A stretch of 39,130 bases of DNA from an uncultured Bacteroidaceae bacterium. GTDB taxonomy: Bacteria > Bacteroidota > Bacteroidia > Bacteroidales > Bacteroidaceae. Positions 7,035-39,005 of the stretch are shown one piece after another. Every line of letters begins with the position of its first letter. Position 1 is the stretch's first letter. Position numbers and translations under genes: made by a program. The notes beneath the pieces were generated by a model. It saw only the letters and a list, made by a program, of their open reading frames with translations. It was not told the origin of the DNA and ran no database searches. The stretch is taken from the NCBI GenBank assembly GCA_905234125.1, contig CAJOGQ010000016.1:1-39130 (forward strand), in the 5' to 3' direction.

Positions 7035-7195
7035 AAGTTTCGCAAGTGCTCAACTTTTGAGGAGCAAGGTGCAAGGAGCAGGGGGCAAGAGGAATGTTAT
7101 GTTCGCTGGTTTGCCATTTGTGTATGTATGAGCAAGGTATCCTCTTGCTCCTTGCCCCTCGCTCCTTGCTCCTTAACTCAACTTGCGAAAGTTGA
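7035..7195. mobile_element. MITE-like palindromic element, copy 1 (GCAAGGAGCAGGGGGCAAGAGG... type)
   Basis: Inverted arms AAGTTTCGCAAGT../..ACTTGCGAAAGTT; flanked by 13-bp direct repeat ATTAAAGTTATTT (7022-7034, 7196-7208); near-identical copy at 29266-29413. Confidence 0.6.
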
Positions 7196-15960: not shown

Positions 15961-16018
15961 TACTCTAAACTCTCAACTCTCACCTCTCAACTCTCACCTC
16001 TCAACTCTCAACTCTCCC
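15961..16018. repeat. CTCAACTCTCACCT-type dispersed repeat abutting the amidase stop codon
   Basis: actctaaactctcaactctcacctctcaactctcacctctcaactctcaactctcc; the stop of the next gene is at 16019. Confidence 0.85.
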
Positions 16019-17272: not shown

Positions 17273-19408
17273 TTAATGTGTTAGATGGAACTTCACGCCA
17301 CCCATGATCCAGAGGCCGGGCTGGAGGACGTTGGGATGGTCGTAGTAGTGGTGATTCGTCAGGTTGTTGGCCTGGACGTAGAGGGTCGAGTGGGGGAGGG
17401 TCCACTGGATTTTGAGGTCGAGCGTGGCGGTGGCGCCGAAGGGTTGGGATTGGCCGGTCTGGGCGTTGTCGAAGGCACCGGAACGGTTCTTGAGGGTGAA
17501 ATCCCATTGGGCGGTGAGGTGCGGGAGGATGCTGTGGTTGAGCGAGGCGACGAGTTTGTGGCGGAGGAAGGTCATGCGGGAAACGTAGTTGAGAGTTGAG
17601 AGTTGAGAGGTGATAGTTGACAGTTGTGGGGAGCCTGCTCGCCACTTGTAGTTGTAGCAGTAGGAGAGGGTGAGGCGCTGGAGGAGGGAGTGGATGCCCC
17701 ATTGTTGGGTGAAGTCGAAGGTGGCGAGGGCTTCGGCGCCGAGGGTGTTGATGTCGCTGTTGGCGGTCTGGTAGTAGGTGGAGTCGGGATGTTTCACCCA
17801 GTCGATCATGTCGGTTCCGTGGCGGTAGAAGCCTTTGGTCTGGAGGCGGTAGAAGGAGCCGGTGAAGGAGGCACCGAGGTGCCAGTCTGTGCTCTTCTCG
17901 GGCTTGAGGCGGAGGTTCCCTTGCAGGCCGGGGCCGTTGTAGTAGAGGTCGGTGTAGGTGGGGGTGCGAAGGCTCTGGTTGAAGGAGGCAAAGAGCTTCA
18001 GCGCTTCAGTGGGTCGCCAGGAGAGGTCGATGCCGGGGTAGAGTCGCATGGAGCCTTCGACGGAGGTGTTGTGGTTGGCCAGCATGCCGACGGAAAGGGT
18101 CACGTGGTCGAAGAGGATGTCGTGCTCGGCGTAGAGGCTGAGGTTGGTTCGTCCGTCCTTATATTGATAATAGGTGTCGTGGCCAGGCACTTTGTAGCGG
18201 TGCTGGTCTTGGGCGGGGATTTCCTTGCCGAGACGGGTGGAGAGGATATTCTCGCGCCGGAGTTCGAGGCCGATGGCGGTCTTGCCGAGTGCCCAGGTGG
18301 TGTAGGCGTTGGCATTGGCGCCATAGACGTTGGTCTGGTGGAAGTTCTGGTAGGCTTGGGGATTGGCTCGTCGCCAGACGTAGTGGTCGAGGGAGCGGTT
18401 CCAGTAGAGCTGGACGGGCACATGGATGCGTCCCTTGTATTCGGCTTGGAGGGCAATCAGATAGCGGCGGTCTTCCTCATACTGCGTGTCGGAGCCGGTG
18501 CCGTAGAAGGTGTTGGCGCCGTAGTTCATGGTGCTGAGCCCAGCCTGCAGGTTGGCGTCGAAGTGCTGGCTCTCGTAGCGTCCGTTCCAGTAGGCGTTGC
18601 CCTTGTTGAAGTCGTCGTTGGTGGTTCCACCGTCGCTGCGGGTGTAGCCTCCGCTGATGCGGTTGTTGAAGTGGGCAGTTTTCAGTGCCCCGAAGGCATT
18701 GGCACCGAAGGTTCCGTAGGAGCCTCCTTGCAGATGGGCACCCAGCGAATTGCCGTGCTCGTTGCGAGTGACGATGTTGATGGCTCCGGCGAAGGCTTGG
18801 CTTCCGTAGATTCGGCTGGCTCCTCCTTCGATGATTTCGATGCGCTCGATGTCATCGACGTTGACGGGGAGATCGACGGTCAGATGGCCGGTGTGGGGAT
18901 TGGAGATGTTGATGCCGTTGAGCAGGACGGTGAGCTGATCCTCGGTTCCGCCGTTCACGCCGATGTCGGTCTGAATGCCGAAGCCTCCACGTTGCCTGAC
19001 GTCCACTCCTGCGGAGAGTTTCAGCAGGTCGTTGACGGACTGGGCACTGGAGGCTTCGATATCCTGACGGTTGATGACTTGGACGAGGCGGACGGCCTTG
19101 TCTGCAGGAAGTGGGGCACGGGTGGCGATCACCTCCACGGGGATGAGGAGGAGGGAGTCGAGGGCATCGTCGGGGCTATCTGTGCCACAGCCACTTGCGG
19201 AGCTGGAGGACTGTCCGTCGTTGTGACCCTGCTCATGACTCATGGCCATCATGGCTGCAGCTGAGTCGGGACAGGCGAAGGTGAGGGTGGCAACGCTGAG
19301 GACAGCGATGCGGATTTCGCGCTTCAGACTGAGGAAGATGGCGTCGCCATGACGGGTGAAGTGGTGCCAGACGATGGCCTTGGGTTTCTGATTGAATATT
19401 TTTTTCAT
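17273..19408 (-). CDS. TonB-dependent receptor (BtuB-like) with extended N-terminal signal region
   Basis: QVINRQDIEASSAQSVNDLLKLSAGVDVRQRGGFGIQTDIGVNGGTEDQLTVLLNGINISNPHTGH plug; C-terminal barrel. Confidence 0.9.
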   Translation of the reverse strand: MKKIFNQKPKAIVWHHFTRHGDAIFLSLKREIRIAVLSVATLTFACPDSAAAMMAMSHEQGHNDGQSSSSASGCGTDSPDDALDSLLLIPVEVIATRAPLPADKAVRLVQVINRQDIEASSAQSVNDLLKLSAGVDVRQRGGFGIQTDIGVNGGTEDQLTVLLNGINISNPHTGHLTVDLPVNVDDIERIEIIEGGASRIYGSQAFAGAINIVTRNEHGNSLGAHLQGGSYGTFGANAFGALKTAHFNNRISGGYTRSDGGTTNDDFNKGNAYWNGRYESQHFDANLQAGLSTMNYGANTFYGTGSDTQYEEDRRYLIALQAEYKGRIHVPVQLYWNRSLDHYVWRRANPQAYQNFHQTNVYGANANAYTTWALGKTAIGLELRRENILSTRLGKEIPAQDQHRYKVPGHDTYYQYKDGRTNLSLYAEHDILFDHVTLSVGMLANHNTSVEGSMRLYPGIDLSWRPTEALKLFASFNQSLRTPTYTDLYYNGPGLQGNLRLKPEKSTDWHLGASFTGSFYRLQTKGFYRHGTDMIDWVKHPDSTYYQTANSDINTLGAEALATFDFTQQWGIHSLLQRLTLSYCYNYKWRAGSPQLSTITSQLSTLNYVSRMTFLRHKLVASLNHSILPHLTAQWDFTLKNRSGAFDNAQTGQSQPFGATATLDLKIQWTLPHSTLYVQANNLTNHHYYDHPNVLQPGLWIMGGVKFHLTH
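17587..17628. repeat. GAGAGTTGA-type dispersed repeat inside the TonB receptor ORF
   Basis: gttgagagttgagagttgagaggtgatagttgacagttg; translates in frame as QLSTITSQLSTLNY. Confidence 0.8.
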
Positions 19409-29265: not shown

Positions 29266-29413
29266 CTCAACTTTTGAGGGGCAAGGGGCAAGGAGCAGGG
29301 GGCAAGAGGAATGTTATGTTCGCTTGTTTGCCATTTGGGTATGTATGAGCAAGGTATCCTCTTGCTCCTTGCCCCTCGCTCCTTGCTCCTTAACTCAACT
29401 TGCGAAAGTTGAG
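29266..29413. mobile_element. MITE-like palindromic element, copy 2
   Basis: CTCAACTTT...AAAGTTGAG termini, long internal inverted arms; flanked exactly by 7-bp direct repeat TAAATAA (29259-29265, 29414-29420). Confidence 0.65.
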
Positions 29414-29862: not shown

Positions 29863-29980
29863 AAAGCTGTAAAACCCACCGCATGGCTATTATATATTAT
29901 AAAAGCTGTAAAACACGCCGCATGGTTATTATATATTACAAAAGCTGTAAAACACGCCGCATGGTTATTATATATTATAC
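29863..29980. repeat. 3 x 39-bp tandem repeat in the panC-panD intergenic region
   Basis: AAAGCTGTAAAACACGCCGCATGGTTATTATATATTA(C/T)A repeated three times; flanked by inverted ATAATTTACAATGTATAA / TTATACATTGTCTATTAT. Confidence 0.9.
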
Positions 29981-32963: not shown

Positions 32964-33182
32964 ATGCAGGACAAAAAGCATAGGTTGAGCAAGAAAGATG
33001 GGTATCGGCTCATCTACATCGTTTATAAAAAACAGGAGGAAGTGGGGCTACTTGATGTTTATCCCAAGAATGGTCCAATGCAACAATTGGACATCGATGA
33101 TGAGGAGGTCGTTCATTTGGTGCAGCAATATCTTGAGGAGAAAAAACATGGCGTGCTTACTTCATATCATGTTGAGAGTTGA
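32964..33182 (+). CDS. Small RelE/HigB-like toxin C-terminal fragment
   Basis: HRLSKKDGYRLIYIVYKKQEEVGLLDVYPKNGPMQQLDIDDEEVVHLVQQYLEE resembles the RelE-family ...GGYRVIYYV...LLDIYSK...I(D/S)DEE core; N-terminal half missing. Confidence 0.5.
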   Translation: MQDKKHRLSKKDGYRLIYIVYKKQEEVGLLDVYPKNGPMQQLDIDDEEVVHLVQQYLEEKKHGVLTSYHVES

Positions 33183-33199
33183 TAGTTGACAGTTGAGAG
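33171..33199. repeat. GAGAGTTGATAGTTGACAGTTGAGAG dispersed repeat containing the stop of the RelE-like ORF
   Basis: gttgagagttgatagttgacagttgagag. Confidence 0.8.
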
Positions 33200-34744: not shown

Positions 34745-34918
34745 GGTTGACAGTTGAGAGTTGACAGTTGATAGTTAAGGGTTGAGAGTTGACAGTTGAT
34801 AGTTAAGGGTTGAGAGTTTAGAGTTGATAGTTAAGGGTTGAGAGTTTAGAGTTGAGAGTATAGAGTTGAGAGTTTAGGGATCTTTTAATGGTTATAGGTT
34901 ATGGGTTATTGAGGGGAA
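34745..34918. repeat. Composite dispersed repeat (TTGAGAGTTGACAGTTGATAGTTAAGGG... then GGTTATAGGTTATGGGTTATTGAGGGG)
   Basis: About 130 bp of 10-bp-like words followed by GGTTAT words; ends at the ATPase stop (34919). Confidence 0.85.
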
Positions 34919-36231: not shown

Positions 36232-36353
36232 GGGGAGTTGACAGTTGAGAGTTGACAGTTGATAGTTGAGAGTATTTTAATGGTTATGGGTTATTGGTTA
36301 TTGAAGGGGGATAGTATAGAGTATAGAGTTTAGAGTTTAGAGTTAAAGTCCCG
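36232..36353. repeat. Composite dispersed repeat (GTTGACAGTTGAGAG..., GGTTATGGGTTATTGG, TAGAGTTTAGAGTT)
   Basis: Same words as the other copies. Confidence 0.85.
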
Positions 36354-36800: not shown

Positions 36801-36880
36801 AGAGTTGAGGGTTGACAGTTGATAGTATTTTAATGGTTATGGGTTATTGGTTATGGGTTATGGGTTATTGGTTATTGAGT
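36801..36880. repeat. Composite dispersed repeat upstream of the helicase start
   Basis: agagttgagggttgacagttgatagtattttaatggttatgggttattggttatgggttatgggttattggttattgag. Confidence 0.85.
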
Positions 36881-36881
36881 T

Positions 36882-38753
36882 ATGCTTCGTGATTATCAGA
36901 TAGAGATGCTTGACAGGCTGGAAAGAGCTTGGCAAGGACATCGCAGTGTATTGGTGCAGATGCCGACAGGAACGGGAAAGACCGTCCTGCTGGCAGAGGT
37001 GGTGCGTGACCAGATGAAGCTGGTGGATGCACCATCCGTGCTGATTGTGGCACATCGTCGGGAACTGATTGAACAGATCAGGAACACGTTGAAGCGGTAT
37101 GGGCTGGATGGTGCGAATGTGGTGGTGGAGAGCATCCAGAAACTGTCATCCCCCACCAGTCAACTGTCACCTGTCAACTATCAACTGGTCATCGTTGATG
37201 AAGCCCACCACGCTCTGGCCAAGACCTACAGGATGCTGTGGGAGAGATGGCCGGAGGCGAAGTTCCTGGGACTGACCGCCACCCCATGCAGACTGAGCGG
37301 GGAGGCCTTCACGGATCTGTTCGAGGTGCTGCTGCAGTCGTGGACGATCCAGACCTTCATCGACAAGGGATGGCTGAGCGACTTCGAGTATGTGAGCGCT
37401 GCCCCTGACAACAGGATGATGCAGCAGGTGAGGGGACTCAGGAAGCGGGGGCTGGGGGGCGACTACCAGGAGAAGGAGATGTGTGCAGTGCTGGATGTGC
37501 CCGAGAGCATCGAACACCTGTACAAGACCTACAAATCTTTTGCGGATGGAAAGAAGGGCATCGTGTATGCCATCAACCAGCAGCATGCCCGGCATATCGA
37601 CGCCTATTACCGGGAACAGGGCGTCAACTGCTGCGTGATTGACAGCAGGACACCTGCTAAGGAGAGGCAAAGGATGGTGGAGGACTACAGGAACGGACGG
37701 ATAGACGTGCTGGTGAACGTGGACATCTTCTCGAACGGCTTCGACTGTCCGGAAGTGGAGTTCATCCAGCTAGCACGTCCCACCTTGTCGCTCTCCCTCT
37801 ACCTCCAGCAGGTGGGTCGCGGCATGCGCATCAGCCAAGGCAAGGAGGCGGTGATGATCCTTGACCAGGTGGGCATGTACCAGACCTTCGGGCTCCCCAC
37901 GGATGAGCATGACTGGGGACAGGCCTTCCTCGGGAAACTCGCTGGCAAGGGCAATCCGTCGGAGGTGAGGGGCATCGTCGTCAGGGATGACATGGACGAC
38001 AAGGAGCTGGTGAACCTGGAGATGGTGCGCATCAAACGCAGTGGGGAGGCACACCGCAATGTGGAGGTGTTCATCCAGAACGGGAAATATGGCATCATGT
38101 TCGACGGGAAGGTGACCTGCCCCGCACAGTTCGAACGCATCAGGAGACTTTCCGACGGCTATTTCGCACTGGCCACCTATCCTTACCTCATATACAGGAA
38201 CAAGGTGACGGTGATAGACAGGCAGGGACGTGACCTGAAGGCATCGCTCTATGGAAAGGTCAAGCAGGAGGGAGACCTCTTCCATGGCCAGTCCTCGGAA
38301 GGCAAGATGACGTACTGGGATGGCAAGGGCAGGACCTATTATGATGCACCGCCCGCTTTTGAGCGAGTGGGCAATCTGGACATGGTCAGGACCGGCAAGA
38401 ACCAGTACCAGCTCAGGAGACCCTCGACATTGATGCCGAGACCTGTCTGCAAGAAGGACATCTTCTACAATGACAAGCTGACGGTCATCAACGACATCGT
38501 CATCCTCAACGATGACAACCACACCGTGCTGAAGCCATCCTGCTATTTCGGTGACAGGATGCTGGTGGAGGCGAGGAGGAACGGCCATCGGTCATTCAGG
38601 TGGGTCACGCTTGCCGATGGCCTCACGGACGAATACACCGATGATCTGTATTGGGAAGGGAGCACGGAACCTCTCTGGAAAGACACCAGAATGGTGAATG
38701 CCGGGACGGGCAAGCTGGAATATATGAGTCCTGAGTGGGGAGTTGAGAGTTGA
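36882..38753 (+). CDS. Superfamily II DEAD/DEAH helicase with C-terminal WG-repeat-like region
   Basis: LRDYQIEMLDRLERAW..VQMPTGTGKTVLLAEV; DEAHHALAKTYR; GLTATPCRL; QVGRGMR; C-term YGIMFDGKVTCPAQFERIRRLSDGYFAL. Confidence 0.85.
   Translation: MLRDYQIEMLDRLERAWQGHRSVLVQMPTGTGKTVLLAEVVRDQMKLVDAPSVLIVAHRRELIEQIRNTLKRYGLDGANVVVESIQKLSSPTSQLSPVNYQLVIVDEAHHALAKTYRMLWERWPEAKFLGLTATPCRLSGEAFTDLFEVLLQSWTIQTFIDKGWLSDFEYVSAAPDNRMMQQVRGLRKRGLGGDYQEKEMCAVLDVPESIEHLYKTYKSFADGKKGIVYAINQQHARHIDAYYREQGVNCCVIDSRTPAKERQRMVEDYRNGRIDVLVNVDIFSNGFDCPEVEFIQLARPTLSLSLYLQQVGRGMRISQGKEAVMILDQVGMYQTFGLPTDEHDWGQAFLGKLAGKGNPSEVRGIVVRDDMDDKELVNLEMVRIKRSGEAHRNVEVFIQNGKYGIMFDGKVTCPAQFERIRRLSDGYFALATYPYLIYRNKVTVIDRQGRDLKASLYGKVKQEGDLFHGQSSEGKMTYWDGKGRTYYDAPPAFERVGNLDMVRTGKNQYQLRRPSTLMPRPVCKKDIFYNDKLTVINDIVILNDDNHTVLKPSCYFGDRMLVEARRNGHRSFRWVTLADGLTDEYTDDLYWEGSTEPLWKDTRMVNAGTGKLEYMSPEWGVES
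37159..37187. repeat. GTCAACTGTCACCTGTCAACTATCAACTG dispersed repeat within the helicase ORF
   Basis: In-frame translation SQLSPVNYQL just before VIVDEAHH. Confidence 0.75.
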
Positions 38754-38820: not shown

Positions 38821-39005
38821 TATCAAGTTGACAGGTGACAGTTGACAGCTTATCAAGTTGACAGTTTAGAGTTTAGAGTTGAGAGTTTAGGGTTGAGAGT
38901 TTAGGGTTTAGAGTTTAGGGTTTAGAGTTTAGGGTTTAGAGTTGAGAGTTTAGGGTTGAGAGTTTAGGGTTGAGAGTTTAGAGGGATGAGAGTTTAGAGG
39001 GATGA
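38821..39005. repeat. Long TTTAGAG/TTTAGGG/TTGAGAG repeat tract
   Basis: tatcaagttgacag x2 followed by many gagtttagggttgagagtttaggg words. Confidence 0.9.

Follow-up and report, generated by a model that had tools for sequence, protein, structure and literature searches.

How a short word that recurs between genes comes to be read, in frame, inside an outer-membrane receptor is the question raised by a 39,130-nucleotide stretch of DNA (hereafter the window; contig CAJOGQ010000016.1 of assembly GCA_905234125.1) from an uncultured Bacteroidaceae bacterium. A preliminary description had taken the word to be a mobile or expanding noncoding sequence exapted as a protein segment, probably in an extracellular loop of a TonB-dependent receptor and potentially giving loop variation. 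The 26-mer GAGAGTTGAGAGTTGATAGTTGACAG has 11 matches in the window when up to three mismatches are allowed, against 0.00 expected from shuffles, and is present in the receptor tract with one mismatch, as GAGAGTTGAGAGGTGATAGTTGACAG. The repeated word is not the 26-mer, however, but a heptamer in tandem: the receptor tract consists of 42 bp in six consecutive units, which read AGTTGAG AGTTGAG AGTTGAG AGGTGAT AGTTGAC AGTTGTG on the + strand, and the open reading frame passes through them intact, with the translation ...RAGSPQLSTITSQLSTLNYVSR..., as had been described. The remaining arrays of the window (Table 1) are mostly intergenic; the helicase gene that holds the second in-gene array had no orthologue in the four genomes searched. 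Another heptamer word occurs in two pairs (7060-7089 with 7144-7174, and 29277-29306 with 29361-29391) of identical layout, AGGAGCA/AGGGGCA followed some 55 bp on by CTTGCTC, and positions 29863-29979 hold three near-identical 39-bp tandem copies adjoining AT-rich heptamer tracts.

Table 1. Heptamer arrays in the window and the genes and loop that hold them.
Feature	Position	Strand	Remarks
Six-unit heptamer array (NTCAACT on the coding strand, AGTTGAN on +)	17587..17628	-	In frame; encodes receptor residues 594-608
BtuB-like TonB-dependent receptor ORF, 711 aa, array host	17273..19408	-	Plug PF07715 and barrel PF00593; BtuB best in fold and profile matches
Codons of the loop joining barrel strands 17 and 18 (residues 590-613)	17570..17641	-	AlphaFold2 model
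Second in-gene array, four units, read SQLSPVNYQL	37159..37186	+	In frame in helicase ORF
ResIII/DEAD-type helicase ORF holding the second in-gene array	36882..38753	+	Domain match
Intergenic array, seven units	15965..16013	+ (open strand)	
Four-unit array close to gene end	33170..33197	- (open strand)	
Longest window array, 16 degenerate units, 28-bp higher-order period	34745..34856	-	
Intergenic array, five units	36236..36270	-	
Short intergenic array, three units	36803..36823	-	
Group of degenerate arrays, AGTTGAC and AGTTTAG units	38826..38981	-	Downstream of helicase gene

The receptor that harbours the array has BtuB1 of B. theta as its best profile match and E. coli BtuB as its best fold match, BtuB proteins being its nearest relatives of solved structure. 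It resembles BtuB-type TonB-dependent receptors, a class that transports corrinoids, in possessing both a Plug domain and a 22-strand barrel (Pfam domains; AlphaFold2 model), but differs from them in a heptamer-encoded loop that is found, among the relatives sampled, only in the window species. In the model (mean pLDDT 79.5), whose strand count and loop number are our own reading, strand 17 spans residues 576-590 and strand 18 residues 614-628, and residues 594-605, at a pLDDT below 50, fall in the low-confidence loop between them. Because the C-terminus would be periplasmic, this loop is extracellular by topology, and the array-encoded residues are predicted to sit in extracellular loop 9, in agreement with the placement first proposed. 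At the other end of the protein, the first ~90 residues (window ~19120-19408) match, in many relatives, a separate upstream ORF of ~280 aa, so that two receptor gene architectures occur in the genus.

Alignment of orthologues bears on whether the tract was inserted. The array is absent from all 29 aligned receptor orthologues of the genus, in which a short stretch (VHKEHDANYV, for example) separates YNYKYR from the SRMTF strand, in most of them nine residues shorter than in the window receptor, while the sister species G018 has one extra loop residue and a degenerate two-unit stub (PEPSTLNY, TCCACTCTCAACTAT); a tree built without the loop pairs the window species with G018 (99/98), and then with G037. 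Judged from this alignment, the receptor insertion is derived, since 29 orthologues lack the array and G018 has a two-unit stub at most. The stub may mean that the array predates the split of the two species and later grew in the window's lineage, or that it has shrunk in G018. Nor did orthologues yield the same peptide from unrelated codons, the array peptide being found at the loop position in none of the 96 loci, from two overlapping collections, whose match spans the loop. QLS-like peptides in four receptor orthologues were considered as counterparts of the loop and rejected, as their positions in the protein differ. In one Prevotella receptor orthologue (L092, near locus position 2427), four TTTCAAC-type heptamers encode a barrel-strand stretch, KLSTFNFQLST, and a similar peptide in L084 is encoded by unrelated codons; the L092 array may have arisen in place on matching native sequence.

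For the window receptor, chance or independent local slippage of ordinary codons, with no relation to the intergenic repeats, could be imagined; the native Asn-Tyr codons (AACTAC) could have been the seed, and the two-unit stub of G018 speaks for it. The likelihood of this is close to negligible, given that the TCAACTN core occurs at hundreds of sites in the window's genome (358 overlapping matches to a three-unit pattern with up to two mismatches), that arrays are present in 27 of the 45 genomes of the genus, and that many empty orthologous sites have no seed. The number of matches in the genus ranges from none to more than 200, and arrays occur in 24 of 295 genomes of the order; as their presence is patchy inside a single genus, fast gain or loss is suggested. 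When 200-bp flanks were compared, few groups of arrays shared them (four copies of one gene end, and paralogues) and most in-gene arrays shared none, for which reason a single carrier mobile element was rejected. The four copies (L139, L144, L153, L166), with flanks 92-97% identical over 78-309 bp, appear to be a small repeated segment, a gene end, that carries an array. No description of TCAACTN arrays was found in the open-access literature.

The unit has a peculiar relation to the genetic code. Its open strand, NTCAACT, gives [VLIF]N[SCYF]QLST whichever of the three frames is used, so that only net length modulo 3 matters to a host gene, and its closed strand, the complement, has TGA in every frame and can therefore only end a gene. 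A survey of 48 stretches around arrays, which cover 443 kb of the window's genome and give counts for that sample and not genome totals (genes being called by a hexamer score trained in this analysis and backed by Pfam domains and orthologues), placed 32 of 84 arrays inside genes, in frame and on the open strand, and found that in 15 of the 84 the closed strand provides the stop codon of a gene. A second species (G030) has 25 of 58 arrays in frame inside genes. With a coding fraction of 0.88 in the sampled stretches of the window's genome, arrays are thus under-represented in genes, yet common there. Period 7 was the sole period detected, with no array of period 4-6 or 8-12 at threshold in these stretches, which had been chosen for heptamers.

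Host genes are diverse. By Pfam they include, in the window's genome, those for a PFL-like enzyme, cytochrome bd subunit II, MiaA (IPPT), a PrmC-like methyltransferase, a UbiA-family enzyme, an anthranilate-synthase-like enzyme, TilS, UvrA, Mfd and GH31, and in G030 those for AtpG (two arrays), MurB, CobT-type and CobU enzymes, QueA, a NuoF-like protein and asparagine synthase; many in-gene arrays are spanned by Pfam domains. Three more lie in TonB-dependent receptor-like proteins of the window's genome (two in L168, one in L145), which, like the predicted extracellular position of the window's insert, would suit a receptor-specific adaptation, the loop having been selected for altered recognition of ligands, phages or toxins at the surface. 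Such selection is highly improbable as the explanation, for the peptide is also found in many cytoplasmic and inner-membrane proteins, so that exposure at the surface is not what its hosts share. Its presence in housekeeping enzymes of cytoplasm and membrane points instead to genome-wide toleration of the repeat and not to a function selected in this receptor, and exaptation, as first put, is not supported.

Orthologues in four genomes (G006, G010, G037 and G018) revealed many array sites to be length-variable, empty or otherwise filled. Other junk-like inserts occur at some array sites (L206/L275, G018 CobL-like; L272, G010 Mfd; L363, G027 MurB), among them NSSFLIPHS, which resembles a second heptamer family, and GC-rich inserts of PPAPEGG type; since sites with an array in one species carry other inserts in others, array-bearing loops may be general landing sites for inserts. 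Some arrays are held in common: those in UvrA and the PFL-like enzyme by the window's genome and G037, and those in PFL-like and CobL-like genes, at the same sites, by G030 and G027. An assembly or binning artefact could be suspected in a draft genome of 107 contigs and 84% completeness (all compared genomes are likewise drafts, one per species), but these same-site arrays in separate genomes, the co-linearity of the receptor array's flanks with orthologues, and the small size of that array, whose 42 bp fit within a single ordinary sequencing read, make it exceedingly improbable.

How arrays change once present can be followed in their units. Core positions of interior units are 95-99% invariant and N is free, with a species-specific preference, the window's genome favouring C and G030 favouring G; N matches in 61% of cases at lag two and in 35% at lag one, an excess pointing to 14-bp duplication steps. 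Between G030 and G027, sister species whose receptors are 97.7% identical, in-gene arrays differ in length by 21, 21, 21 and 42 bp, four of six changes being exact multiples of 21 bp, and the two others, of 18 and 6 bp, also keep frame; two G030 array sites hold unrelated sequence in G027. In 11 gapless pairs from these species, N differs at 22 of 59 positions (37%), the core at 19 of 354 (5%) and the flanks at 407 of 5828 (7%), and three arrays have changed N as a block (GGGGGGG to CGCCCCC, for example). The core evolves like flanking DNA, and N turns over in blocks. Of the loop variation proposed earlier, what stands is that sister species differ in the length and the peptide of arrays inside other genes; for the receptor loop itself, variation is unsupported as it was put.

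A unit of seven, not a multiple of three, inside a reading frame would also suit the switching of frames, and phase-variable loci of Haemophilus influenzae are known to contain heptanucleotide repeats; the arrays might then be contingency loci, one-heptamer slippage toggling the receptor and other genes. Yet none of the 84 arrays of the window's genome or the 58 of G030 is a clear case of a frame-shifted gene, no frame-switching length variant was found between the species compared or across the sampled genes, and in-gene length changes between sister species are mostly of 21 or 42 bp. The arrays are, besides, short and imperfect, and their hosts include UvrA, AtpG, MurB and MiaA, genes that a cell should switch off only at a cost, all of which makes phase variation very unlikely. 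Two loci that at first seemed frame-shifted (L150, L156) were rejected, as each looked like a boundary between genes.

Among known repeat systems, the palindromic elements of Rickettsia (RPE), 100-150 nt palindromes of MITE type (PMC10969869; PMC4316617), offer a functional likeness, being dispersed non-coding repeats found between genes and, in frame, within many unrelated protein genes that stay unbroken. In-frame insertion of that kind is seen here (32/84 and 25/58 arrays), but the palindrome of ~100-150 nt is absent, the arrays being direct, mostly 28-50 bp long and devoid of inverted arms; they differ from RPE also in being readable in three frames of one strand and in changing length after insertion. 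By analogy the heptamer family works like RPE but is a different element, outside the structural definition of RPE. Closest in form are the TAACTGA direct repeats known from Beggiatoaceae, from cyanobacteria and from some Bacteroidetes (MacGregor 2015, PMC4679880), also dispersed period-7 arrays in which stop codons close every frame of one strand and none of the other, and some in ORFs. Repeats of the TAACTGA class mostly precede start codons at short distance. The unit here is TCAACTN/AGTTGAN, however, not TAACTGA or its complement TCAGTTA, and use inside genes is much heavier: reverse TAACTGA repeats occur in 11 ORFs, mostly hypothetical or at protein ends (PMC4679880), whereas genes hold ~40% of the arrays sampled here, and conserved domains enclose many of these. 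In Xanthomonas and Nostoc, GGGAATC-type heptamers likewise form dispersed arrays whose placement differs among related species, but they are G-rich, are proposed to form quadruplexes and are rarely inside genes (7-11%; PMC4692102).

Taken as a whole, these comparisons make it likely that the receptor tract reflects a dispersed, self-expanding heptamer repeat tolerated in protein loops under frame selection, and not a receptor-specific device. The tract would be one copy of a family, with core TCAACT and a free base N, that multiplies in a rumen Bacteroidales genus within genes and between them, presumably by ectopic copying and slippage. An insertion with a net length divisible by three would yield a readable seven-residue repeat on the open strand and persist at sites where added residues do little harm, as in receptor loop 9 or at variable-length sites of housekeeping enzymes, the inserted segment being presumably neutral in the main or mildly costly. 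Once in place, arrays would gain and lose units (seen here between species, from one genome each) and become homogenised; out-of-frame changes would arise and be removed, frame selection leaving chiefly changes of three heptamers (21 bp). That an active process writes or rewrites TCAACTN arrays, in essential genes too, by copying from a species-specific pool is unlikely, though suggested by the blockwise switching of N with the core fixed and by the preference of each species for its own N.

Bacterial dispersed short repeats are usually regarded as intergenic, yet in both of the species sampled the same repeat appears readable inside roughly twenty to thirty genes, among them genes for DNA repair, tRNA modification, cell-wall and cofactor enzymes. 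Seeming variation of a receptor loop should be viewed with caution, as it may be turnover of a repeat and not adaptation. Since one peptide results in every frame, heptamer arrays are a natural experiment in the entry of non-coding sequence into proteins, in the choice of loops that can take it up, and in the strength of selection for frame.
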